Source of the DNA: Seonamhaeicola algicola
GTDB taxonomy: Bacteria; Bacteroidota; Bacteroidia; Flavobacteriales; Flavobacteriaceae
Length of the DNA stretch: 64,000 nt
Assembly (NCBI RefSeq): GCF_007997385.1
Contig: NZ_VOSC01000033.1
Location: 62,775 to 126,774 of the forward strand
Direction of reading: 5' to 3'
How positions within the stretch are numbered: the first letter of the stretch is position 1; each line of letters begins with the position of its first letter. The notes beneath the pieces were generated by a model. It ran no database searches, was not told the DNA's origin, and saw only the letters and a list, made by a program, of their open reading frames with translations. The position numbers and the translations under genes are program-made. Positions 7,302 through 22,427 of this stretch are shown here, one piece after another.

Positions 7302-7318
7302 TTTAGTAGCGGGAACTG
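7302..7318. repeat. attL core: left copy of the 17-bp direct repeat
   Basis: The 17 bases from TTTAGTAGCGGG through AACTG match 22350-22366 exactly. The match breaks on both sides (a G precedes it here, an A at the right copy; CTCTC follows here, GACTC there). It reproduces the last 12 bases of the tRNA-Met gene plus 5 bases beyond. Confidence 0.93.
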
Positions 7319-7454: not shown

Positions 7455-7480
7455 TTTTTGGGAAGATTTTGGGAAGATTT
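7455..7480. repeat. Left arm-type repeat: two tandem TTTTGGGAAGAT units
   Basis: Two tandem copies of TTTTGGGAAGAT lie between attL and the integrase start. The same block, in the same orientation and with one mismatch over 25 bp (7455-7479), sits at 22274-22298 inside the right end. Tyrosine integrases use arm-type sites of this kind, so these are probably integrase arm sites. This copy also overlaps the integrase promoter region, so binding could repress the gene. Confidence 0.7.
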
Positions 7481-7512
7481 TTTGTATATTGAAATCTCTT
7501 AAAACCCTTTGT

Positions 7513-8829
7513 ATGGCTAGTATTACACTCTTATCAAAAACAAAAAAAGACCCTATAAACCTATATGTGAGGTTCAATTATAGTGATAACGGCAAAACCA
7601 TTGACTTATTTGAGAAGTCAAACATATTAGTTAAGAACAAGTGGTGGTCTAACAAAAAACAAGCATTTAATGCAGTTTCTGAACCATTCCCAAAAGAAAA
7701 ATTAAGAGAGCAAATCAATGGCTTAAAAGACTTTATCTTAAATGAGTTTAATGAAGCTTACGGAAATGGAGAAACAATTGACAGAATATGGTTAAAAGCA
7801 GTAATAAGCAAATACAATAATCGCCCAAAAGATTCAAACGAAAACTATACTGTTTACTTTGTCCCATTTGTAGAGAAGTTCATAAAAGAATCAGAAGGCA
7901 GAATCAATTTAAGTACAGGTAAAAAAATAAGCACTAAAACCATTCAAAAATACAACACAACCCTTGAAAGACTGAAAGAGTTTGAAGAAAAACACACAAC
8001 TAGATTAAGGCACAGAGATATTGGATTAGATTTTCATAAAAATTTCGTCAGTTATCTATCTATCGATTGTAATTATGGGAATACTACTATTGAAAAATAC
8101 ATAGGACAAATAAAAACGTTTTGCAGAGAAGCAGAAGTGTCTAAATACGACATTAACCCAGAGTTTAAAAGTCCTAAATTCAGTTTTAGAAGGCAAAAGC
8201 CTTTAGACCCATATTTATCAGTAGAGGAAATTGAAAAGATTTATAATTTAGAAATTGAAGACGACAGATTAGACAATATTCGAGATTTATTTATTATCGG
8301 ACTATGGTCTGGATTAAGAGTAAGCGATTTTAAGCAGCTTAAAAGAATGAATATTGTAAATGACACTATTATAGTGTCTAGCACAAAAAAGACCCATGCT
8401 CCTGCTAAAATACCCATACATTCTCATGTAAGAGATATTTTAAAGAAACGAAATGGGGCTTTACCCAAAATTGATATTGGCGAGAAATCTTGGGAAAATC
8501 TCTTTAACAAGAAAATTAAAGAAATATGTCAAATGGCTAAAATAGACCAAGTGATACTTGGAGACAAAAGAGACCCAAATACAAATAGAAATGTTCGTGG
8601 TTTATATCCAAAGTATGAGCTTGTTAGTTCGCATATATGTCGTAGGTCATTCTGTTCAAATCACTATGGTAAGCTTCCAAATCAAGCAATCATGGCAGTT
8701 ACTACTCACGCTTCAGAAAAGCAGCTACTAGACTACGTCAAAATAGGCAATGACCAATACATAGAAATGATAAGAGATTATTGGGAACAAGAAGAAAATA
8801 AAAACTCTAAAATGAAGGTCGTTTCATAA
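7513..8829 (+). CDS. Tyrosine recombinase / integrase of the island
   Basis: The product is about 438 residues from the ATG at 7513. A TTG at 7489 would extend it by 8, but MASITLLSKTKKDPINLYVRF is the usual start of Bacteroidota integrases (an Arm-DNA-binding domain). A SAM-like core-binding domain follows (about 110-215), then the catalytic domain: GLWSGLRVSDFKQL carries the first catalytic Arg, HICRRSFCSN carries the H-x-x-R pair, and the late segment TTHASEKQLLDYVKIG carries the second His (TTHAS) and the probable catalytic Tyr (LLDYV). It lies next to attL and should catalyse integration and excision at the tRNA-Met site. The gene appears intact. Confidence 0.95.
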   Translation: MASITLLSKTKKDPINLYVRFNYSDNGKTIDLFEKSNILVKNKWWSNKKQAFNAVSEPFPKEKLREQINGLKDFILNEFNEAYGNGETIDRIWLKAVISKYNNRPKDSNENYTVYFVPFVEKFIKESEGRINLSTGKKISTKTIQKYNTTLERLKEFEEKHTTRLRHRDIGLDFHKNFVSYLSIDCNYGNTTIEKYIGQIKTFCREAEVSKYDINPEFKSPKFSFRRQKPLDPYLSVEEIEKIYNLEIEDDRLDNIRDLFIIGLWSGLRVSDFKQLKRMNIVNDTIIVSSTKKTHAPAKIPIHSHVRDILKKRNGALPKIDIGEKSWENLFNKKIKEICQMAKIDQVILGDKRDPNTNRNVRGLYPKYELVSSHICRRSFCSNHYGKLPNQAIMAVTTHASEKQLLDYVKIGNDQYIEMIRDYWEQEENKNSKMKVVS

Positions 8830-9069: not shown

Positions 9070-9432
9070 ATGGAAAACGCACCAGTAATTATTGAAAGGT
9101 CTCAAATTGACCTAAACCAAATCGCAAGTCAGATGATTAAACAATTATCTGATAGCATTGCAAACAAACTATTAGAAGGCTTTAAACATATTTTAGAAAG
9201 CCACAACCCCATTAAACCTGAACAGCCAAAAGAGTACTTCTCAATAGAGGAAACTTGTAAAAAGCTTGATGTTTGCAGAACTACTCTACACAATTGGAAC
9301 AAAAAACAAGAACTTGTCCCTGATGCCAAATGTGGCAATAGACCTTTATATTCTAATGTATTAATTGATGAGTATTTAAGCAGAACTACTGACTCATTAG
9401 AGGATTTTGAATTTACTAACACTAAAAACTAA
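9070..9432 (+). CDS. Helix-turn-helix protein, excisionase-like
   Basis: The 120-residue protein has a variable N-terminal part (about 1-55) and then a MerR/excisionase-type helix-turn-helix: YFSIEETCKKLDVCRTTLHNW at about 57-77, followed by a short wing. This form, usually called HTH_17, is frequent in Bacteroidota mobile elements as an excisionase or as a regulator of the replication gene. The next gene starts 5 bp downstream, so the two are almost surely co-transcribed. The role in excision is inferred from family and position only. Confidence 0.8.
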   Translation: MENAPVIIERSQIDLNQIASQMIKQLSDSIANKLLEGFKHILESHNPIKPEQPKEYFSIEETCKKLDVCRTTLHNWNKKQELVPDAKCGNRPLYSNVLIDEYLSRTTDSLEDFEFTNTKN

Positions 9433-9437
9433 ATCCT

Positions 9438-10757
9438 ATGAGAATTTTATTAAATGAATGCCTCATTGACAAAGTCAAAGAATTGGCTACACTAGATAAT
9501 GGTTTCAAATTTAAAGAAGACAAAGCATTATATCTACTAAACTTAATATTATGTGGCACAAATGATGATGATGAATTTGAAGAAACTGGTTGGGTTTCTT
9601 TATGCTCCAATATTTTAAGAGAAATAGTATCTAAAGACCATAACAAGTACCTAGATTTATTTGTAAAACACACAATTATAAGCAAAATCAACTATTGCAA
9701 ACAATGTAATAAGTGTAATCAATTTTATCTTATTCCACATTGGATAGACGATTCTAAGCTAATCGAATATGAAATTACAGATTGGAATTTAAAAAAGAAG
9801 CAAAAATCAAGAATTATGCCTTCCGCTGTAAAAAGATATAAATGTCTTTGGAAATGGTTTGATAGTGATGATTTAACACTAGATGTGGACTCCGCATTGC
9901 AAGAAATAGAAAACCTCCATTTTAACCAAAGAAAAGTATTGGCTATTAAAAATGGTATATCCAACTTCATAAATGGAAACAAATGGTTCATTAGACACAA
10001 TGGAGACAAAAGGCTACACACCAACTTGACCAATATGAAAAGTGAAGTGAGAAAACATCTCAAATTCAAGGGAGAGCCACTTGTCAATATCGACATCAAC
10101 AGCTCCCAAATCTTCTTCTTGTTAGTTCTTCTTGATAAAATCAATAAGAATAAAACTAAAGATATAACAGAGGACATACACATAATCTCGGCACTTCCTC
10201 CTGAAAGCCTTGACCAGAGCGAGTTTCAAAGGTTTAAGAAATTAGTTCTTACAGGGACTTTTTATGAGGTACTTGGCAATAAATTGATTTCAGATTTAGG
10301 TAATTGTGGTATTTACGAAAAATGCAAATACAACCATAAAACAAATAAAGCAAACTACACCCTTTACGATAAACCTAAATCTCTTATGAAACCAGTAGCT
10401 TTTGAAGTTATCTTCTCAAAGAATAACCAATATACAAAAGAGAAAAGTTGGTTTAAAAAAGAGTTTCCAACTATATACTCTATAATTGAAAAAATTAAAG
10501 AGAAGAAGTATCAAAAACTAGCTTTACTATTGCAGAATATAGAAGCTACGGCAATATTAGATAAGTGCATTAAAAGCATTAATAGATTCGACAATAACAT
10601 TCCTTTGTTTACTATACATGATTCTATTATGACGACTGCTGAATATGTTGATATTGTTAAAAACATTATGGAAAAAGAAATTTTCAACTATACTGGCTTT
10701 ACCCCATCTATTTCTATTGAAGTATACCAAAATATTTCATTATCTAATGTTGCTTAA
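9438..10757 (+). CDS. Compact polymerase-like protein with family A (Pol I/T7-like) palm motifs; probable element replication protein
   Basis: I do not recognise a named family for this 439-residue protein, but its C-terminal 250 residues carry the family A nucleic-acid polymerase motifs in order and at plausible spacing. RLHTNLTNM (192-200) mirrors the RLSS..NLQNIP segment of Pol I. VNIDINSSQI (216-225) is motif A with D219. K314-x3-K318-x3-F322-x3-F326 matches the O-helix pattern R-x3-K-x3-F-x3-Y of motif B. FTIHDSI (391-397) is motif C with H394-D395. No 3'-5' or 5' nuclease domain is visible. The first 180 residues are unassigned and include a possible zinc cluster (C87, C90, C93). It follows the HTH gene by 5 bp. 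The likely role is replication or priming of the excised island; an RNA polymerase-like activity is the alternative. Confidence 0.68.
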   Translation: MRILLNECLIDKVKELATLDNGFKFKEDKALYLLNLILCGTNDDDEFEETGWVSLCSNILREIVSKDHNKYLDLFVKHTIISKINYCKQCNKCNQFYLIPHWIDDSKLIEYEITDWNLKKKQKSRIMPSAVKRYKCLWKWFDSDDLTLDVDSALQEIENLHFNQRKVLAIKNGISNFINGNKWFIRHNGDKRLHTNLTNMKSEVRKHLKFKGEPLVNIDINSSQIFFLLVLLDKINKNKTKDITEDIHIISALPPESLDQSEFQRFKKLVLTGTFYEVLGNKLISDLGNCGIYEKCKYNHKTNKANYTLYDKPKSLMKPVAFEVIFSKNNQYTKEKSWFKKEFPTIYSIIEKIKEKKYQKLALLLQNIEATAILDKCIKSINRFDNNIPLFTIHDSIMTTAEYVDIVKNIMEKEIFNYTGFTPSISIEVYQNISLSNVA

Positions 10758-12220: not shown

Positions 12221-12239
12221 AGAAGTAATATTGACTTCT
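12221..12239. promoter_or_regulatory. Inverted repeat abutting the XRE start codon: probable operator
   Basis: AGAAGT, a seven-base spacer and ACTTCT form a perfect inverted repeat ending one base before the ATG of the XRE gene. The position suggests self-repression by the XRE protein and control of the divergent three-gene unit. Confidence 0.55.
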
Positions 12240-12512
12240 ATGTCAACAGAAGAGCAAAAAACTAACGAGATTGAACTTACTCCCCAACAGCTTAAAATTT
12301 ATAAAAAAGCATTTGGAGAAAGGTTGCAGGAAATCCGATTAAAAAAAGGCATGTCTCAAACTGCTTTAGCTTCTTTAATTGGCTTTGAAAAAACAACTAT
12401 TTCTCGAATTGAAAATGGCAGAACAAATTTTACATTTTCCACAATCGTTAAAATTTGTCTCGCATTGGAAGTTGAAATGAAAGAAGTTTACGATTTCAAA
12501 TTTCTTAAATAA
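12240..12512 (+). CDS. XRE-family helix-turn-helix transcriptional regulator
   Basis: The product is 90 residues from the ATG at 12240; a TTG nine bases upstream is possible but lies inside the inverted repeat. It is a single HTH_3 domain: FGERLQEIRLKKGMSQTALASLIGFEKTTISRIENGRTNFTFSTIVKICLALEV, with the usual recognition helix KTTISRIE. No other domain is present, so it is probably a dimeric repressor of phage or island type. It is divergent from the three small minus-strand genes and lies 355 bp upstream of the defence-like operon, and could control either one. Confidence 0.9.
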   Translation: MSTEEQKTNEIELTPQQLKIYKKAFGERLQEIRLKKGMSQTALASLIGFEKTTISRIENGRTNFTFSTIVKICLALEVEMKEVYDFKFLK

Positions 12513-12867: not shown

Positions 12868-15800
12868 ATGTTAACACAAATTGAACAAGCTTTAATCAGA
12901 TGCAATTCTGACAAATATGCAAACCTCTGTCGATTATATTTATCATACAGGTATAACAATGTAATTCCTACAGGGTTTGTTTTGGGAAAAGAAAAATCAA
13001 AAAAAGGAACTCCTGACAATTTTATTCCGATAGAAGATTATTATATTTTTAATGAAGTTACTACTCAAAAAGAAAGACTAAAAAGTAAACTTAAAAAGGA
13101 TATTGAGCATTGTTTTAAACAAGAAGACATACCTAAACAAAAGATTGTCAAAATTATTTTGATGTGTAATAGTGAGGTTAGTGCTTCATTATTTAATGAA
13201 TTATCAGAATATAAAAATACATTTCAAAATTCAACAAAATTGGAGGTCATTGATTTAGCTGACTTTTCCAATCACATACATAGAGATTACCCTTCAATAG
13301 CAAGAGAACTTAATATACCAATTGACACAGGTCAAATTTTAGAAGTCAAATCCTTTATTAATCAATATGAAAAATCAAAATTTGCAACCACGTTATCTAA
13401 TGATTTTTTTAATAGAAAAGAAGATTTAGATGATGGAATTCAGTACCTAAAGGATTCTGATATTCTTTTGATTTCTGGAATTGCTGGAATTGGCAAGACT
13501 AAATTCTCATTGGAGTTATCTAAAAGGTTTAAAGATGAGTTTCCAGAATTTCATTTAAAGTATATCATCAATAATGGTTGTTTGGATATATGGGAGGATT
13601 TAAAAGTTCAATTAATAAAAGATAGAAATTATCTCATAGTTCTTGATGATGCAAATAAACTTAAAGCAAACCTTGAACTAATTCTAAATTTTATTAAAAA
13701 TGAAGAAAGAAAAGGTAAAATTAAATTAATACTTACGGTAAGAAACTATGTCAAGGAATATGTCCAGCAGTTTTTAAAACACTATAAGCATATTGAATTA
13801 AAAGAGTTTGAAAAATCTGAACTGGCACAAATTCTTCAAAGCCCCGATTTTAAGATCACTAATTATTATGTTGATAGGATTTACTCAATTTCTAAGGGTA
13901 ATCCAAGAATAGCTATAATGGCTGCAATTGCAGGTATTAATAAAGAAATTGAAAAGTTAAATAACGCATCTGAAATATATGAAGAGTATTTTTCATCTGT
14001 AAAAGACAATATAGAAACATTTGGAAATGAAAATTTACTCAAAACAGCAGGAATAATATCGCTTTTTAGAGTTATAGATTTTGATAATGAAAGTACTATT
14101 AATGAAATAGAGGAATATTTTGAAATCTCGAAAAATGAGTTAATTGAAAATTTAAGGGCACTATACAAGCTAGAAATCACAAATGAATTTAAAAATGCTT
14201 ACAAAATTGCCGACCAAATACTGGGAGAATATATTTTCTATCTAGTTTTTATTAATGAACAAAAAATACCTTTCTATAAATTACTTAAAGTTTATGTGGA
14301 AAAAAGATTTTTCCCATTAAGTAGAATTTTAGTTCCAATTGTTAGCAATTATGGATTTGAATCAGTTAAAAATCAAATCGTTAAGGATATTAAAACCGTA
14401 TGGAATGAAATTTACAAAGAGGAGGTTGCAATTCGTTTTTTGGATGACTTTTGGTATTACCTTACTACAGAAGCATTGATATATCTCAACAAGTTTGAAC
14501 GTTTAAAATTTCCCAAACAAATAAATGAATACCCTTTTAAAGTCTATGATGAAAACCATTTAAACTCATATAAAGACAAAAGAATTGACATACTAGTCAA
14601 GTTTGAAAACTTTCATGATGACTTCAATCATGCACTAGCTATTTTACATGATTATGGATTGTCAAATGAAACACTTTTCACAAAACTTCTTAAAGTATAT
14701 ACACAAAGTTTTACATACGGTCAATTTAGTTACGAATACAAATACAGAACCCAAATTAACTTATTTGATTTCCTATACTCCAAAATCGATGAGAACCCTT
14801 TATTTTACTCAAGATTAATACTATTTATTGCACCAAGTTATTTAATTGATAGTTATCGATGTACGGTTAATTATGGTAATAAATTTGCTATAAGCATGAA
14901 ACCTATATGTTTAACAGAAGAGCAAAAAAGATTTAGAACTAAGCTTTGGGAATTTATTTTTAACTGTTACAAAAACATCAAAATAAAAAATGAAAGTAGG
15001 AACGCCTTAATTAAGTATGTTTCTAAATTATCTTATCACGATAGAGTAAATGATGTTATTGAGTTTGATATGAATATTTTAATACCATTCATTGAGGACA
15101 ATTTCAACAAAGATGATTATACCGATAATTCTATAGTTGATAGATACACTTCCAAATTGAGACTTTATAAGATTAAATACAAAAAAGGGTTAGAAGATTT
15201 ACACTGTGGAGATTTATATAATACTTTTCTATTATTAAGTGAAGACAAGCTTAAACGCAAAGATTTTAATGGAGATTATGATAAATATGAAGAGTACAAA
15301 GAAAAAGAGGTTGAAAAGTTTATTGCTGATTTTTCATTAAAGGAATATTATAAACTTTTAGACGATATTGATTTTATCTATAAGCAAGAGACTAAAGGAT
15401 TAAGGGGTTATTTTGGTGTAAACCATTCCTTTGAAGCCATTTTAAAATATTTACACAAAAAGGATTTTCATTTATTTCTTAAAGTCTTAAAGAAAACACT
15501 CCAGTATGATTTCTGTAAAGAGATTGCTTTTGGCAGGGTTTTTTCAAAAATTGAATTCGACAATCAAAAAATTAAGGGTTTAAGAAACTTGTTAAAAAGC
15601 AATAGTGTAGGGCAATTATATTTAAATCTCTTTTGGAATGGTTTGTCTGATAACGAGCTGACAGATGAAGACTATCTACTATGCTTAAACTATATAAAAA
15701 GAAATGATGTAAAATATATATGGTTTTTGCCTAATTTTCTTGAAAAGGCTAGTAATGTTTTTAATGATTTTAAAATCAAATTATATGAAATATTTGATAT

Positions 15801-16575
15801 AGTTATTGAGAGAATTAACAATGACAAGGTAAATGTAGAAAAAGACTTTTTCTTATATCTTCATAAAAATCATTTTGAACTGTTTAATAGCAAAATTGAA
15901 CAAATTAAACACTCTTATCTTATTCTTGACGAGAAAGACAGGCATTTTGATTATGACCTAAAGTTGTTAAAGTTAATATTAAATGACTATCCAAGTTTTA
16001 TAACTGATCTACTGAAAAACAGTTATGATTACAAAGATTATTTATCCAGACGAGAATTAAGTCAAAATGATTTTACAAAATTATTGGATTTAAGTAATTA
16101 TGAAGTTGTAATGTATAAGATGTTAGAATACTTTAAAAAGTTTGATAGATTCTCATGGTCAGATGATATTTCAACCGTTTTTAAAGGGAATAATCAAAGG
16201 GAGGAAAATGTACTTAAAGAGTATTTAATCTCATCAAACGATGAATCTAGTATAGCAATGATTTATAATATAGTGGTTAACAAGTACAGAGATAAGAAGT
16301 TTGATTTTTTAAAGCTAATAATTGATAAAAATATAAGCACTTCACAATTTAACAGGCTTGGTTTTTATCCTGAAGGCATGATTTCCACAGGCAGTAGAAT
16401 TCCAAAAATTAGAAATCAAATAACCGAACTACAAAAAGTAATTGATTATTTAAAAAGCTTAAATGATTTAAATCTTTTGGAGTTTGTGAATATTTTAGAT
16501 GAAAAAGTAATTAGGAAGAAATCTGAAATCGAGAGAGAAATCAAGGAAGAATTTATAAGAGACTGGGGGCTTTAA
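12868..16575 (+). CDS. Large STAND-type NTPase with possible N-terminal nuclease-like domain; candidate anti-phage sensor
   Basis: The 1235-residue protein has three parts. Residues about 1-165 contain GTPD (47-50) and NEVTTQK (62-68), a D-x12-E-x-T pattern that recalls a PD-(D/E)XK nuclease core with the Lys replaced or shifted. Residues about 180-450 are a P-loop NTPase: Walker A GIAGIGKT (204-211), Walker B YLIVLDD (255-261), a possible sensor Arg in LTVRNY, and a GNP motif (344-346) like the GxP motif of STAND proteins. The remaining about 780 residues are helix-rich without a recognised domain, as expected for the ligand-sensing repeat arm of STAND defence proteins such as Avs. The HEPN gene follows after 10 bp. 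A role in sensing phage and triggering an effector is inferred, not shown. Confidence 0.78.
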   Translation: MLTQIEQALIRCNSDKYANLCRLYLSYRYNNVIPTGFVLGKEKSKKGTPDNFIPIEDYYIFNEVTTQKERLKSKLKKDIEHCFKQEDIPKQKIVKIILMCNSEVSASLFNELSEYKNTFQNSTKLEVIDLADFSNHIHRDYPSIARELNIPIDTGQILEVKSFINQYEKSKFATTLSNDFFNRKEDLDDGIQYLKDSDILLISGIAGIGKTKFSLELSKRFKDEFPEFHLKYIINNGCLDIWEDLKVQLIKDRNYLIVLDDANKLKANLELILNFIKNEERKGKIKLILTVRNYVKEYVQQFLKHYKHIELKEFEKSELAQILQSPDFKITNYYVDRIYSISKGNPRIAIMAAIAGINKEIEKLNNASEIYEEYFSSVKDNIETFGNENLLKTAGIISLFRVIDFDNESTINEIEEYFEISKNELIENLRALYKLEITNEFKNAYKIADQILGEYIFYLVFINEQKIPFYKLLKVYVEKRFFPLSRILVPIVSNYGFESVKNQIVKDIKTVWNEIYKEEVAIRFLDDFWYYLTTEALIYLNKFERLKFPKQINEYPFKVYDENHLNSYKDKRIDILVKFENFHDDFNHALAILHDYGLSNETLFTKLLKVYTQSFTYGQFSYEYKYRTQINLFDFLYSKIDENPLFYSRLILFIAPSYLIDSYRCTVNYGNKFAISMKPICLTEEQKRFRTKLWEFIFNCYKNIKIKNESRNALIKYVSKLSYHDRVNDVIEFDMNILIPFIEDNFNKDDYTDNSIVDRYTSKLRLYKIKYKKGLEDLHCGDLYNTFLLLSEDKLKRKDFNGDYDKYEEYKEKEVEKFIADFSLKEYYKLLDDIDFIYKQETKGLRGYFGVNHSFEAILKYLHKKDFHLFLKVLKKTLQYDFCKEIAFGRVFSKIEFDNQKIKGLRNLLKSNSVGQLYLNLFWNGLSDNELTDEDYLLCLNYIKRNDVKYIWFLPNFLEKASNVFNDFKIKLYEIFDIVIERINNDKVNVEKDFFLYLHKNHFELFNSKIEQIKHSYLILDEKDRHFDYDLKLLKLILNDYPSFITDLLKNSYDYKDYLSRRELSQNDFTKLLDLSNYEVVMYKMLEYFKKFDRFSWSDDISTVFKGNNQREENVLKEYLISSNDESSIAMIYNIVVNKYRDKKFDFLKLIIDKNISTSQFNRLGFYPEGMISTGSRIPKIRNQITELQKVIDYLKSLNDLNLLEFVNILDEKVIRKKSEIEREIKEEFIRDWGL

Positions 16576-16585
16576 AAAATAATAC

Positions 16586-18373
16586 ATGAATGAAATTATT
16601 AAATGGATTGACATTGCAAAAAGCGATGTTAAATCTTCAAAAATACTATTGAAAAATGACTGTTTCAGTCAATCATATTTTTATTTCCAACAAGCCTCAG
16701 AAAAGGCGAACAAAGCCAATTGGATGCTAAATGGTCTATTAAAAGAAAGTGAGCTTAAAAATGTTGGACATGACCAATTTAAACCTTTAAGGAAGAACTT
16801 AATTAGTCAAAAAGACAATATCAATTACATCAATTCCTTAGAGGATAAAATCAGTTTCATTTCTGAAAACCCATTACTTAAAAGTATTGATATTACTGAA
16901 TATAAAGATAACTTAACTACCAGTTTAAAATTTATTGACAGTATTAAAAACCAAGAAGCAACTGATTTTGAAGAATCTGATTTAAAAAAACTATTGGAAT
17001 CACTTCAAGAAATTAAAGAATCTAAACTTGAATTCCCTACAAACCTTTCTGAAATACTTAAAACAAGTTTACATGATTATGCAATTTGGCTCAAAAAGTT
17101 TAATTCTGAAAAAACAAATCAAGAAGCTGATGAATTATTAGAAATACTCTCTAACGAAGAACATTTTGTTGATTATATTAAATTAGTTAAGAACCTGCTT
17201 GACATTACATTAAGCTTAGCTTATGCTTCAAATGTATTTTTATTTTGTTCAATACTGACTGCCAAACATAGTAATTCAACCAGATACCCTCAAGAATTAA
17301 ATGGCAATAGTCCTTTGAATGTTTATAATAAGAGTTTGGAAATAATTAAAAAGCAAGAGTGTTTTTTAAATCATCTTGATGATGCTCTTGATAGACTAAA
17401 GGGAATAAGCGAAAACTATAATTACAAAAATGATGAAGAAATAACAGCTATTGAACAATCAATAAAAATCAATTACACTCCTGATTCTACTTGGGAGGTT
17501 TTTAGCATAAAAAGTAAAAATGATTTTCATAATCAATTTCTAATCAAAAAAAATGTTCATTCTGATGTCCCTGAAAAAATTGTCAAAGAAATGGCTATTG
17601 CAGAACAGTTACAGTCATTAAGTTACTTTCATTATCCAGTTTACGGAGATGCTTTTTCAAGGCTAACTCGAATTTTTGAAATGGCAGTTAAATCTAAAGC
17701 TGTCGAGTTAAATGTTGAAATAAAAAATAAATCATTATTCAATCTTATAAAGATAATATCTAATGGGCATTCTGAAATTTATAAACAAAGATTGGATTGG
17801 GGTAGGAAAATGCGAAATATGAATGCACATCCTAATGCAGGAACTTTATATGGTAGTATGTTAAAATTACCCTTAATTCGTTTAACCAATATCATTAACG
17901 ATATTTTTAGAGATAACGATTTTTTTAAAAACGAGGATACATACTTGAAATTACTTCAAAACGAATACAAGCATCTTTTAAATGGTTTATGGAAGCTTGA
18001 CAATGTACTGATTCATTCTGTTGAAATTTTGGCAGCAAGAGGCAAAGCTTCTCTTTGGGCTTTTTATCCTGTTAGGCAGAATTACCCTCAAGATGACAAT
18101 GACAAATTATATAATCTTGAGCCTATATGTGCAATTTTAACCAATCATACAATAGACAATGGTTCATTGATAAGTAAGACAATTAATAATGCTGTGATTG
18201 AGCTTAAAATTGATAACACCAATGAAAATTTAGAGAAGCTTAAATTTTATAAGGATTTAATTAGAACAGCCAATAAAAGCCGAAAACAAGCCATGGAAAT
18301 GATTACAAGCCAAGCTATTGATTATCAAATTGAAAACTTTTATAACGTCATTGGTTCTTATATCAAATTATAG
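16586..18373 (+). CDS. Two-HEPN-domain protein, candidate RNase effector
   Basis: The 595-residue protein starts with a HEPN-type helical bundle: KWIDIAKSDVKSSKILL and FYFQQASEKANKA (about 6-45), GHD at 61-63, and STRYP at 231-235, as at the end of the classic HEPN domain. That first domain lacks a clear R-x4-6-H. A second helical region (about 330-430) contains RNMNAHP, an R410-x4-H415 motif of the form used by HEPN ribonucleases. A helical linker joins them. It is co-transcribed with the STAND NTPase (10 bp apart), and its stop overlaps the convergent nuclease gene by 11 bp. The likely role is RNA cleavage on infection. The catalytic pair is visible, but activity is inferred. Confidence 0.75.
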   Translation: MNEIIKWIDIAKSDVKSSKILLKNDCFSQSYFYFQQASEKANKANWMLNGLLKESELKNVGHDQFKPLRKNLISQKDNINYINSLEDKISFISENPLLKSIDITEYKDNLTTSLKFIDSIKNQEATDFEESDLKKLLESLQEIKESKLEFPTNLSEILKTSLHDYAIWLKKFNSEKTNQEADELLEILSNEEHFVDYIKLVKNLLDITLSLAYASNVFLFCSILTAKHSNSTRYPQELNGNSPLNVYNKSLEIIKKQECFLNHLDDALDRLKGISENYNYKNDEEITAIEQSIKINYTPDSTWEVFSIKSKNDFHNQFLIKKNVHSDVPEKIVKEMAIAEQLQSLSYFHYPVYGDAFSRLTRIFEMAVKSKAVELNVEIKNKSLFNLIKIISNGHSEIYKQRLDWGRKMRNMNAHPNAGTLYGSMLKLPLIRLTNIINDIFRDNDFFKNEDTYLKLLQNEYKHLLNGLWKLDNVLIHSVEILAARGKASLWAFYPVRQNYPQDDNDKLYNLEPICAILTNHTIDNGSLISKTINNAVIELKIDNTNENLEKLKFYKDLIRTANKSRKQAMEMITSQAIDYQIENFYNVIGSYIKL

Positions 18374-21300
18374 CATTCATCTTAATCTCGTTAAGAGAAT
18401 AAATTGGAATTTTTGTTTTCTCCATAAACTTAATTGGTAGTTGATATGATGATATGACCATTGATTTAACTTTATATCCCTTGTCTTCTATTTTAAAAAC
18501 TTGTAGCACATCACCAATATTTTTCTTTAACCAAAATTCTCTATTCAAATGCTTTGGAAGTTGCTTTTCAATGTAATTTTTTAAGTCATTTTGAAAGTCA
18601 TACATGATTTTCGCCTGTTTGGTATTCTTACACTCTATTGAATAAAGTATTTTCCTTCTAATATCAAATGCCATAATATCGACATCACCATAGTTTCTAT
18701 CAGCATTAAATAGCCCATTTTCTTTTATTTTAACTTCATAAGGAATAACTTTTAGGTTTGGTTTTTTTATCAACCACTCAAAAACTTCTTCTCTAAATTC
18801 CCTCCCTTTTATATTATTTCTCTCAGCTAATAACTTATTAATTGCCTTACAATCATCCTCAACCTTTAAAGAGCCGTTGTGAAAAAGAGCTAATAAATTA
18901 TCTGATGCCATATCAATATGTCTAGCACTCCAATAAAAAATAAAACCATTACTACCGTTTTTTACTTTTAATAAAGGTCTTCTTATATATGAATATTTTC
19001 GATTGTATCTCCATGGGAATATCTCTGGATAATCATTTAAAACTTTTGGCTTATCCATTTTACCCCTAGTTTCAAGACCCATGTTTTCTATATATGAATT
19101 TATATTTTTCTCATTCATATTTGTTCTGCTTTTTAACATAGATTTAAGTTCTTCATCTGTACAGGAATAATAAGATTTTTGATTTTCAAAGCAATAATCT
19201 GATAAGAGGTTATTTGTCGCTATAATCATAGGCAAAGTTATTCCCCAATCAGCTAAAAAAGCTTCATCAACCTTATCATAGTAGGCATCAATCTTTTTTT
19301 GCTTATCAGAAGTAATACCATTCTTTGTTTTGAATTTATTAGCAAAAGATTCATCATAATCCAAAATTTCGTCTTTTGTAACTGATTCCCTATAATTAGT
19401 TAGAACGTTATCATAAAAGTCATGAGATATACCAATTCTTCCAGAAGGCAAAAGCCCCATTTTAGGGTTATCAATCTTAAACTTAATTGAATCTTTAACT
19501 GCTCCGTAATTGATTATTTCAGTCATAATTGCTAGTAGAAAATCCACATCATCATCATTTACAGTCTTATCACCAAAAAACGGTTCGGCTACAACAAACT
19601 CAATCAAGCATCTTATTGAATGTGATGCCTTTACTAGTTTTCCATTATACTCTTGATAAGACTCAACAACATCTTCATACTTACCAAAGCATTCTATTCT
19701 TGCAGTAACAGATAAATCTCTTCTACCAAGACTATGGGATAATGCTTCATGCCTTAACATTAAAAAAGGCAATAATGATTCAAAATTAAATTCTTTTAAT
19801 CTATTCCTTAATTGCTTAATCAGAGAGTCTATTAATTTAAGGCATAGGGATTCTTTTTCTTTTTCAGTTTTTATAACCTCAGGAATTTTTGATTTTTCAG
19901 GCAACCAACTTACATTATCTTCTAATACAATAGCTATATCAGCATCATAAACAAATCTTATTCTAGGTATATGACTCCCATTCATTTTAATATTGTCAAC
20001 AGAATGTGCGGTTAAAATCATTTTTGCTCTACTCAAAGGCATATAATCATTTAAAATCTGCTCAATTTGACCTTCCTCAATTCTATCGCAATCATAAATA
20101 GTAAGTAAATTGTTAATTCCTCGGATTACTGCATCCATCAAAATTCTTTCCCCATGATTATCAACTCTATGAAGTGCTCCAAAAATACTTTTCGGTATTG
20201 TTAGTTCAATTTTTCTCAACTTTGGATTTATGTTGAAACCAATATTAATTTTCCCTGTACTGGGGTTATTATCTTCGGTAATTTCCAAAAGCCCCTTTTC
20301 AAATGTCAGCTCTATTTCTAAAGGGTATTTATCAAAAGGAATTAGTATGTTCGTCAACGGTTTTTCAAGCTCGTTTAACCAATAAAGAATTGCTTCCACA
20401 AAATTTCTACCAACAACATCGTATCTTTTTTTACAGGTAACCCAAATAGGGCAATTATACTTCTCTAAAGCAACTTTTAAATATCCATCAAAAATTTCTT
20501 CAGAAGTATATATAGGTGCAAAAGTCTCTGTCTTAATAACAGGTATGTACCCCAAACCATTACTTTCATTTATATAATAAATAAAATGTTTATCTTCCTT
20601 TTTATTCGTTTCCACAACAACTTCACCTTGCATTGCAAAATCAAAACTTATCCAATTAGGCGATTCATCATCAGTTAAGAAAAAAGAATCTTTATTTCTT
20701 TTGTACCACTTAAAATAAGTTAGTATTGAAAAAAATGGTGTTATTTCAACTCGTTTTTTGTCAGCTCTTTCCTTTGCTTTTGCATATTTCCACAGTGTAA
20801 GCTTGTCAATATCCCAATGCGACCCCAGTCTACCCAAATCAAAAACATTTACTGCAAGTTGGTATCTTGCTTCTTTTATCAAGTTAAAGCCTATTGCGGT
20901 CATTTCCTTAATCGAAAATTGAGAAAAAACATGAAGAGCTAAAAATTCTACATCATCATTATTTATCTCTCTTTTTATGCTCTTAATAATATTATTAGCT
21001 CTTTTTTCTAAATTAGGTTTAGCTGAATTAGATAAATAACATACATACGCATATTTATTATTATCAAATTGCCAAATAGATTCGTCACAATTTAATTCAG
21101 TTTCAAAATGAACCTTATTCCAATAAGGAGTAAGGTATTTAGTAAGTTCATTTTTAATAATTTTATCATAACTCTCTTCCAATAAACCAAGCTCACCATT
21201 TTCTTCAGCAACTCTTATTATAAATTGATTAAGAGAATACATTTCTGCACTCGGAAGGACAAGTAAATATTCATCTTCTATTTTAACAAAAGGCTTATTG

Positions 21301-22046
21301 ATTAAAACTGTTTCTTCTCCTTTGTTGCTTTTAACTTCTTCAATAGTAGAAGTAAACTGCTGAATGATGTTTGATTTTATTTTGTATTTCCTATAAACCT
21401 TTTTAATAGTATCTTCTGAAAAAGCAAATAGCTCTTTGTGTTTCTGGAGAAAAGACTTTTCTGGAAATGTAATCTTATTTCGATAATCATCTTCAAATAA
21501 ATATCTAGTATAACCTAATTTTAAAGCTATTTCATGTAAAAGAGACAAAAGAAAAACAGTACCCTCTTTAATTTTATCTTTTGTTGATTCTGATAAATCA
21601 TTCTCAATGAAAAAAACCGAATGGAGAATACATTGGTTTACGTTTGTAGATTCGTGAGCTATACCAGGGAACACAACATTATTTCCATTAAAAAAAGTTA
21701 TATTTTCTGTAAATGAAGATTCGCTTGGGTCTTCACGATAATCAGTTTCATAATTAACATGAACAGTATTTTGTAAATCCATATAATTAATAGGTTTGCT
21801 TATACTATTCAAATTTGATATGATTGTATCTTGTATTGTTTCTAACCTAATAAGCTTAGAGTGGTTTTTAGGAATTAGTTGAAGTACTGAAAATATTTTT
21901 AGAAGTTCAAATGAGTTATTATTTCTTATGTAGTTTAAAAAATCATTTTCATTTATATTTTCTTCAATTAACTTTCCGATACAGCATTTTTTGTATTTCT
22001 TTCCACTTCCACAAGGACACAATTCATTTCTCCCAATTTTAGCCAT
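18363..22046 (-). CDS. Large protein with N-terminal SEC-C zinc motif and C-terminal PD-(D/E)XK nuclease domain
   Basis: The 1227-residue protein opens with NELCPCGSGKKYKKCC, a full SEC-C motif (Cys 10, 12, 21, 22), a small zinc-binding module. The C-terminal end holds a restriction-like nuclease core: GDVDIMAF (D1121, D1123) and YSIECKN (E1138-x-K1140) separated by a beta turn. The about 1000 residues between have no family I can name and contain no Walker motif. It is convergent with the HEPN gene and overlaps it by 11 bp. It is the last gene before the right end of the island. The domain pair suggests a nucleic-acid-degrading defence protein, either part of the same system as the NTPase/HEPN operon or an independent one. 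Confidence 0.75.
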   Translation of the reverse strand: MAKIGRNELCPCGSGKKYKKCCIGKLIEENINENDFLNYIRNNNSFELLKIFSVLQLIPKNHSKLIRLETIQDTIISNLNSISKPINYMDLQNTVHVNYETDYREDPSESSFTENITFFNGNNVVFPGIAHESTNVNQCILHSVFFIENDLSESTKDKIKEGTVFLLSLLHEIALKLGYTRYLFEDDYRNKITFPEKSFLQKHKELFAFSEDTIKKVYRKYKIKSNIIQQFTSTIEEVKSNKGEETVLINKPFVKIEDEYLLVLPSAEMYSLNQFIIRVAEENGELGLLEESYDKIIKNELTKYLTPYWNKVHFETELNCDESIWQFDNNKYAYVCYLSNSAKPNLEKRANNIIKSIKREINNDDVEFLALHVFSQFSIKEMTAIGFNLIKEARYQLAVNVFDLGRLGSHWDIDKLTLWKYAKAKERADKKRVEITPFFSILTYFKWYKRNKDSFFLTDDESPNWISFDFAMQGEVVVETNKKEDKHFIYYINESNGLGYIPVIKTETFAPIYTSEEIFDGYLKVALEKYNCPIWVTCKKRYDVVGRNFVEAILYWLNELEKPLTNILIPFDKYPLEIELTFEKGLLEITEDNNPSTGKINIGFNINPKLRKIELTIPKSIFGALHRVDNHGERILMDAVIRGINNLLTIYDCDRIEEGQIEQILNDYMPLSRAKMILTAHSVDNIKMNGSHIPRIRFVYDADIAIVLEDNVSWLPEKSKIPEVIKTEKEKESLCLKLIDSLIKQLRNRLKEFNFESLLPFLMLRHEALSHSLGRRDLSVTARIECFGKYEDVVESYQEYNGKLVKASHSIRCLIEFVVAEPFFGDKTVNDDDVDFLLAIMTEIINYGAVKDSIKFKIDNPKMGLLPSGRIGISHDFYDNVLTNYRESVTKDEILDYDESFANKFKTKNGITSDKQKKIDAYYDKVDEAFLADWGITLPMIIATNNLLSDYCFENQKSYYSCTDEELKSMLKSRTNMNEKNINSYIENMGLETRGKMDKPKVLNDYPEIFPWRYNRKYSYIRRPLLKVKNGSNGFIFYWSARHIDMASDNLLALFHNGSLKVEDDCKAINKLLAERNNIKGREFREEVFEWLIKKPNLKVIPYEVKIKENGLFNADRNYGDVDIMAFDIRRKILYSIECKNTKQAKIMYDFQNDLKNYIEKQLPKHLNREFWLKKNIGDVLQVFKIEDKGYKVKSMVISSYQLPIKFMEKTKIPIYSLNEIKMNAII

Positions 22047-22308
22047 AAATTTTGTTTAATCATAAATTTAGGCAAAAAAAGCCTTTAATTTATTATTTAT
22101 ATCAGATTAGAAACCACCATCATGTTTAGCCCCTGTATGTGAAGCTTTTTCTCCCCCAACCCTCCATATTTGCAAAAATTTAAATAGTATATACTTATAA
22201 AATGTTAGGAGTCCCAAAGAATAAAATTTTCTTTTACCTATAAAATATTTTATGATTTTACTGTACCATTTGGTTTTTGGGTAGATTTTGGGAAGATTAA
22301 GGCATTAA
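22047..22308. other. Non-coding right end of the island
   Basis: There is no gene between the SEC-C nuclease start and the terminator at 22309. It should contain the nuclease gene's promoter, which I could not place with confidence. It also holds a short AGGC/GCCT hairpin near 22072-22086 and the right arm-type repeat at 22274-22298. Confidence 0.6.
22274..22298. repeat. Right arm-type repeat
   Basis: This block matches 7455-7479 at 24 of 25 positions in the same orientation, with an A to T change in the first unit. It lies 51 bp inside attR. Similar blocks near both ends are expected for integrase arm sites. Confidence 0.7.
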
Positions 22309-22347: not shown

Positions 22348-22354
22348 AATTTAG

Positions 22355-22427
<73 letters not shown>

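Follow-up and report, generated by a model that had tools for sequence, protein, structure and literature searches.

A probable TV-Pol-type polymerase on a tRNA-inserted island of Seonamhaeicola algicola

An integrative island of 15 kb in Seonamhaeicola algicola encodes a protein of 439 residues whose palm and fingers, as modelled, have the fold of a family A polymerase. The protein is probably of the TV-Pol type, and on balance we favour the reading that it is a TV-Pol-type primase-polymerase serving as the replication protein of the island. TV-Pols are predicted prim-pols of transposons and viruses, known since 2008 (Iyer, Abhiman and Aravind; PMC2579912). An initial annotation of the window, which is the whole stretch of 64,000 nucleotides analysed here, had described a compact family A polymerase-like protein on a mobile island, and both the fold matches and the ends of the island support that description.

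The polymerase gene and its conserved motifs

The gene and the features assigned within it are as follows.

9438..10757, + strand: TV-Pol-like polymerase gene, an intact open reading frame with an ATG start encoding 439 aa (63-sequence alignment; AlphaFold2 model)
9438..9803, + strand: predicted winged-helix N-terminal domain, residues 1-122 (AlphaFold2 model of the domain alone, pLDDT 85.1, pTM 0.80)
9804..10742, + strand: predicted family A polymerase domain with short thumb, palm and fingers, residues 123-435 (VIA and Foldseek on the predicted model)
10011..10013, + strand: R192, the hairpin Arg ahead of motif A, within RLHTNLTNM (invariant, 63/63; strands 184-186 and 193-195)
10092..10109, + strand: motif A, D219-I-N-S-S-Q224 (D219, S223 and Q224 in 63/63)
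10377..10415, + strand: motif B helix, K314-x3-K318-x3-F322-x3-F326 (K318 in 63/63; R or K at 314 in 60/63; helix 313-326)
10617..10625, + strand: motif C, H394-D395-S396, at the palm hairpin turn (H394 and D395 in 63/63; strands 391-393 and 396-400)

The alignment, A4, comprises the window protein and 62 relatives which share 17-31% identity with it. Seventy-four related loci yielded 66 unique polymerase ORFs (410-619 aa), of which 62 were kept, L065, L085, L112 and L121 being omitted. R192, D219, S223, Q224, Y276, K318, E369, H394 and D395 are invariant in A4 (63/63 each), and identity at these nine positions in every sequence places the conservation of the motifs far beyond chance. The initial annotation had read three palm motifs in order, at D219, K314-x3-K318-x3-F322-x3-F326 and H394-D395, and had judged the RLHTNLTNM segment to fit; the motifs are confirmed at these residues and conserved in A4, and the segment contains the invariant R192. 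Position 314 is Arg in 57 sequences, Lys in three, Val in two and Met in one (n = 63), the window protein itself having KxxxK. Position 322 is occupied by F (35), L (21), M (5) or Y (2) and position 326 by F (42) or Y (21), again among 63 sequences. In a set of 33 unique ORFs gathered separately by genome search, the window included, R192, D219, S223, Y276, K318, E369 and D395 are present in 33/33 and H394 in 31/33.

A cluster of cysteines had also been reported at the N-terminus. C87, C90 and C93 do exist, but they are not a feature of the family: C87 and C90 are Cys in the window protein alone and C93 is Cys in 12/63, so that a Cys/zinc site was dropped. The claim that the protein has no nuclease domain fares better, as no nuclease family of Pfam, NCBIfam, PHROG or PADLOC is matched.

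The window protein matches no family of Pfam, NCBIfam or PADLOC at E <= 1, DNA_pol_A (PF00476) of Pfam included, and has a single PHROG match at E 0.13. The sole PF00476 match in the genome lies elsewhere, on contig 24, and is presumed to be the host PolA. No hit came from searching PDB sequences with profiles of A4 or of A1, an alignment of 31 of the 33 genome-search ORFs (L036 and L038 omitted), and phmmer with the window protein as the single query gave four matches, none better than E 0.65. No Pfam family is consistent among the 31 A1 members, any one being matched by two members at most, and three of them match phrog_4756, which is of unknown function.

The predicted polymerase fold

AlphaFold2, run with A4, gave a model of the whole protein with a pLDDT of 88.8 and a pTM of 0.87, and the palm fold proposed from the motifs was found on structure prediction by AlphaFold2, Foldseek and VIA. 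The best VIA match is the apicoplast polymerase 5dkt (Z 14.7, rmsd 4.1, 255 aligned), which covers residues ~123-435; further matches include Pol theta (Z 14.3), T7 DNA polymerase (13.8) and yeast mitochondrial RNA polymerase (13.2). The best 50 Foldseek matches are all PolA-type DNA polymerases, the top one at E 4.1e-5. In the model, strand 213-220 has D219 close to its end, and the turn joining strands 391-393 and 396-400 holds H394-D395, a palm-like arrangement. Helices 150-159 and 164-178, as assigned by DSSP in the predicted model, precede the hairpin and could correspond to the two-helix thumb module of TV-Pols. Among predicted viral proteins, the top two structural matches are also short (409 and 403 aa), and that of 403 aa carries the name putative DNA polymerase I, from an uncultured marine phage; TM is 0.64-0.71 for the top matches.

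The initial annotation had raised the possibility of a T7-type RNA polymerase. A T7-like single-subunit enzyme would transcribe the genes of the element, with the winged helix recognising the promoter. The yeast mitochondrial RNA polymerase (8att) is indeed matched with an rmsd of 3.2 over 224 aligned residues, 1.5 Z under the best match, motif C reads H-D-S as in T7 RNAP, and a weak hit (E 0.016) links one of the 31 A1 members to a PHROG labelled RNA polymerase. Profile comparison by hhalign is no worse with T7-like RNA polymerases (E 0.007, probability 5.5%, over 34 columns around motif C only) than with PolA (E 0.016, probability 2.8%). On the other hand, DNA polymerases make up all of the best 50 Foldseek matches and 49 of the best 50 VIA matches, and the protein, at 439 residues, has roughly half the length of T7 RNAP (883). 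The residue five positions beyond D219, which by motif counting corresponds to Klenow E710, is Gln in 63/63, whereas T7 RNAP has Gly there, at what we take to be G542. With Gln at this steric gate and mostly F or L at the position of Klenow F762, the RNA polymerase reading is not favoured and appears unlikely. In Klenow, E710 is a residue which discriminates against ribonucleotides (PMC7581432). Gln at D219+5, together with F 35, L 21, M 5 and Y 2 at the F762 position, leans towards dNTPs as the substrate, whilst leaving the matter unsettled.

The island, its ends and its cargo

A 17-nt direct repeat bounds 15,048 bp, the 15.05-kb island, and its right copy overlaps the 3' end of a tRNA-Met gene. 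The ends and the remaining genes assigned are listed below.

7302..7318, + strand: left att repeat, TTTAGTAGCGGGAACTG (direct repeat D10)
22350..22366, + strand: right att repeat, overlapping the tRNA-Met 3' end (direct repeat D10)
22354..22427, - strand: tRNA-Met (cat), the integration target (ARAGORN; tRNA sequence kept in 6/6 congeners)
7455..7490, + strand: candidate integrase arm sites, TTTTGGGAAGATT-like repeats at the left end (repeat family D1)
22274..22298, + strand: candidate integrase arm site at the right end (repeat family D1, 96%)
7489..8829, + strand: tyrosine recombinase, 446 aa (Phage_int_SAM_5 2.2e-9; phrog_1 integrase 4.1e-23)
9070..9432, + strand: HTH_17-like small protein, 120 aa, directly 5' of the polymerase (HTH_17 E 2e-4, under the curated cut-off; phrog_66 'excisionase and transcriptional regulator' E 1.3e-4)
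12231..12512, + strand: cargo, Cro/C1-type HTH regulator (HTH_3 1.5e-14)
12868..16575, + strand: cargo, nSTAND3 NTPase, 1235 aa (nSTAND3 3.1e-8; no PADLOC match)
16586..18373, + strand: cargo, HEPN-domain protein, 595 aa (HEPN 6.3e-6)
18363..22046, - strand: cargo, SEC-C / Upx-like anti-phage protein, 1227 aa (SEC-C 2e-9; PDLC02221 2.2e-43)

The TTTTGGGAAGATT repeats lie just inside both ends of the island, placed as integrase arm sites would be, and are thus candidates for that role. The HTH_17-like protein is probably an excisionase or regulator, and the nSTAND3 NTPase is probably a defence gene product. The 1227-aa cargo protein matches the Upx model NF042954 at 2.6e-53 with 180.6 bits, short of the 1900 bits that this model requires. 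Ten island proteins scanned with Pfam included no recognisable transfer gene, and no helicase family was found above cut-off in the nine scanned island proteins other than the polymerase, DnaB_C appearing only at E 0.096.

The integrase, the polymerase and three cargo proteins are missing beside tRNA-Met in all six congeners (tblastn E <= 1e-5, over 13-16 kb on the 3' side of the tRNA). The left flank of the island has short, weak DNA matches in just two of the six, and it is therefore the tRNA side that supports an empty site. By eye, a hairpin resembling a terminator can be made out beyond the left repeat, and some congeners have one next to the tRNA as well. The genome of one congener, G213, encodes at another location a different polymerase relative (28% identity). 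To the left of tRNA-Met in another, G632 (L180), there is a further, imperfect copy of the 3' end of tRNA-Met immediately beyond the tRNA, which resembles a leftover att site of another insertion.

Relatives and their gene neighbourhoods

Relatives of the polymerase at E <= 0.001 were found in 20/249 genomes of the same family and 12/395 of the phylum, the own genome being counted in both, and a profile search with A4 found them in 13/247 genomes, own included. Scans for related loci with the window protein as a single sequence found nothing. The related-locus search was run with an alignment of eight rows, A2, and gave 68 genome loci, 67 of them with a polymerase ORF; their record titles are those of Bacteroidota, by name or by knowledge. 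An integrase-like ORF lies 5' of the polymerase, on the same strand and within 3.2 kb, in 41/67 loci (36/67 with the HTH gene too), 3' of it in 5/67 and anywhere in the stretch in 50/67, but these loci were found through one motif A pattern, so that the synteny counts lean to that clade and are not independent. The HTH and polymerase genes often have no gap between them in relatives, and a tRNA-Ser(TGA) precedes the integrase in 19 of the 33 loci scanned. The window-type polymerase also occurs in six IMG/VR contigs, in six huge-phage records (two of equal length) and on one Hymenobacter plasmid. No E. coli genome gave a match in a DNA search at near identity.

The genes 3' of the polymerase vary between loci. 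In a scan of 59 of 150 listed downstream proteins, the families most frequent among the matches listed were ResIII (7), Eco57I (4), N6_N4_Mtase (4) and N6_Mtase (3), pointing to restriction-modification, with which PADLOC agrees. Nine loci from several genera (L061, L064, L066, L067, L070, L072, L085, L091 and L092) have in common a cargo block of 105/106-, 728- and 137-aa ORFs 3' of the polymerase; the block appears by eye to be metal-related (L064) and suggests that one type of island has spread recently. A further 34 loci, some of them viral, supplied 131 neighbours, and the matches listed for these include integrase (6), resolvase (4), AAA_24 (7) and DUF3871 (7). AAA_24 and DUF3871 genes form a second context of the polymerase (L084, L086 and others, with L093 and L094 by eye), each having at least 7 members in the 131 neighbours. 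Small RNase H-like proteins are encoded near the polymerase gene at L076 (11461-11871; RVT_3 E 0.0036, under cut-off) and, by eye, at L052 (2491-2916), a hint of RNA-DNA hybrids.

These neighbourhoods bear on two further readings of the polymerase. In the first, it would be a gap-filling enzyme which aids integration or excision and has no role in replication, as might suit a small polymerase without a nuclease that adjoins an integrase and an HTH gene. Tyrosine recombinases, however, need no gap repair, and eight of nine viral loci have no integrase in the stretch covered, making this reading improbable. A similarly low probability attaches to the second, in which an anti-phage or counter-defence polymerase would be part of the cargo and not of the core. 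The islands are certainly rich in defence genes, yet the polymerase stays with the integrase and the HTH gene while the downstream genes change, and it has no PADLOC match.

Two patterns recur in the gap between the integrase and HTH genes of relatives (loci L058-L092). The palindrome AGGT-N5..8-ACCT is present in 14/25 loci (shuffle mean 0.08) and the tandem decamer GTTWATAACT-GTTWATAA in 10/25 (shuffle mean 0), the patterns having been written after viewing the alignment and many of the 25 loci being closely related. Both are candidate operator, iteron or origin sites. The integrase-HTH gap of the window has neither the palindrome nor the tandem decamer. DnaA-box-like sites occur in the gap in 5/25 loci, where shuffling gave 0.77 on average and 4 at most, a signal too weak to rely on.

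Membership of the TV-Pol family

Pol I-like enzymes had been thought seldom to occur on small elements. This does not hold, as TV-Pols have been described since 2008, flavobacterial members included, and the legend of the TV-Pol alignment lists Polaribacter dokdonensis, Psychroflexus torquis, Cytophaga hutchinsonii and a Flavobacteriales bacterium (PMC2579912). The first members described have 400-600 aa and a minimal family A core with a hairpin Arg, two Asp and RxxxK; they have no link to a nuclease and lie beside lambda-type integrases or resolvases, near restriction-modification genes (PMC2579912). The family represented in A4 likewise has the hairpin Arg, the palm Asp pair and RxxxK, together with linkage to a lambda-type integrase or resolvase and no nuclease fusion. 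D219 and D395 are the only invariant Asp in A4 (n = 63); a conserved Asp in the fingers is a TV-Pol trait.

There are also differences. The N-terminal domain of the integrase-linked subset of TV-Pols was predicted to be all-helical (PMC2579912), whereas that of the window protein is predicted to be a winged helix with strands. D5 helicase partners, which are frequent among TV-Pols (PMC2579912), are found neither in the scanned proteins of the window island nor among the matches listed for relatives. The window protein is nevertheless probably TV-Pol-type.

A possible phage counterpart comes from Ma-LMM01, a Microcystis phage named in the TV-Pol paper (PMC2579912). MAP_030 of this phage is the best of its 61 ORFs of at least 250 aa for A4 (unfiltered hmmsearch, E 9.4e-4), mainly through the N-terminal domain; a separate search of the phage using A4 gave no hits. 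At Z = 1000, the E values obtained with the A4 model are 0.015 for MAP_030, 0.062 for a Calothrix ORF and 1.9 for a Polaromonas ORF. A profile combining MAP_030 with five near copies from viruses and two relatives from plasmids was aligned with A4 by hhalign over two collinear segments, residues 4-106 (E 0.0075, probability 5.2%) and residues 189-234 (E 0.0037, probability 8.9%), and in hmmsearch the palm segment scores negative against MAP_030. We infer that MAP_030 is the TV-Pol of Ma-LMM01. If so, both domains would be common to MAP_030 and the window family. The Calothrix (AP018296) and Polaromonas (NZ_MG869621) plasmids, of 13.7 and 11.2 kb, carry distant relatives of MAP_030, and both list a resolvase/recombinase-family protein.

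The N-terminal domain

Residues 1-122, modelled alone with an alignment of 52 of the 63 A4 rows chosen by length, show the helix-strand order of a winged helix. The top VIA matches of this domain are 4pql (Z 7.8), 4pt7, 'Structure of initiator' (7.6), and 5kbj, 'Structure of Rep-DNA complex' (7.0). We take all three to be plasmid RepA proteins, 4pql being presumably an initiator. The domain thus resembles the winged-helix N-terminal domains of plasmid initiators at Z 7.0-7.8, a likeness which is tied with that to unrelated winged helices, namely Fur (7.4) and ORC and TFIIE (7.2), and which, as with all matches of the domain, lies below Z 8, where a shared arrangement only may be reflected. Foldseek with the domain gave no match at E <= 0.001, the best being 0.08. 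As modelled, the N-terminal domain of the polymerase looks like a DNA-binding winged helix. These plasmid initiators are not known to include a polymerase. No winged-helix TV-Pol is described in the titles and abstract openings searched, a body of literature from which subscription journals are mostly absent. The winged-helix reading of the domain may accordingly be new, as may a core apparently devoid of helicase and SSB.

Some mobile elements encode small RRM-only Pol proteins that are perhaps inactive vestiges (PMC10061031). That the window protein is likewise a DNA-binding replication initiator whose palm is no longer catalytic is highly improbable, given that all 63 aligned sequences retain the two catalytic Asp, the Lys of motif B and the Arg of the hairpin.

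A possible role in island replication

If the polymerase is, as we favour, the replication protein of the island, the integrase and the HTH protein would excise the island as a circle and the winged-helix N-terminal domain would bind a site on the element. There, the minimal family A palm and fingers would lay down a primer or the first stretch of DNA, starting independently of any existing primer and probably from dNTPs. The host replisome would then take over replication of the circle. In favour of this reading stand the nine invariant positions, among them the Asp pair that would bind metal, the predicted family A fold, the initiator structures near the top of the winged-helix matches, the recurrent integrase-HTH-polymerase order, the ends of the island with its absence beside the tRNA in congeners, and the weak profile link to MAP_030.

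Parallels can be drawn with known systems. CCPol of SCCmec, which others class with the TV-Pols, synthesises DNA primers in concert with the protein MP (PMC7581432), and the PolA-SSB primases are Bacillota relatives of CCPol (PMC10061031). The SCCmec CCPol-MP and PolA-SSB systems share with the window a family A polymerase on an integrative island, a proposed replication module and defence-type cargo (PMC7581432, PMC10061031). CCPol has Glu at the steric gate, however, and is annotated PolA, whereas the window family has Gln in 63/63 and the window protein leaves PF00476 unmatched. Moreover, CCPol works with MP, which has a predicted OB fold, and with a helicase, whereas the constant partner of the window family is the upstream HTH protein. 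The helicase gene which adjoins the polymerase in PolA-SSB primases is not seen among the nine other island proteins scanned. Pipolins are a further example of integrative elements encoding their own DNA polymerase, although theirs (piPolB) belongs to family B (PMC7385651) and the window protein has a family A fold.

Several observations weaken the replication reading, namely the unmatched PF00476, the weak PolA profile, the tied winged-helix matches, the low hhalign probabilities and, unlike in SCCmec, the lack of a helicase above cut-off among the island proteins scanned. The ICETh2 precedent also counts against it: deletion of a primase-polymerase of that element is reported to have left its replication unaffected (PMC7693054). 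A role as sole plasmid Rep was considered and dropped. The Hymenobacter plasmid encodes a separate 'replication initiation protein', as does the Polaromonas plasmid with the MAP_030 relative, so that on these two plasmids the polymerase, or its distant relative, is not the sole replication protein.

A bolder proposal is that a single chain, joining an initiator-like winged helix to a primer-independent family A polymerase, might combine origin recognition, priming and the start of synthesis without a dedicated helicase or SSB, and might do so on anti-phage integrase-HTH-polymerase islands widespread among Bacteroidota. This we regard as possible, though rather doubtful.

Few TV-Pols have been assayed, and CCPol was the only characterised member known to the authors of PMC7581432 in 2020. 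The present analysis places a small family A polymerase on a Bacteroidota island that has defined ends, sits at a tRNA gene and carries interchangeable defence genes, and it offers a testable proposal as to the nature of the N-terminal domain of the polymerase. It bears on the ability of a minimal PolA palm, in the same chain as a DNA-binding domain, to initiate DNA synthesis, and on how islands in which no transfer gene is recognised keep and copy themselves.
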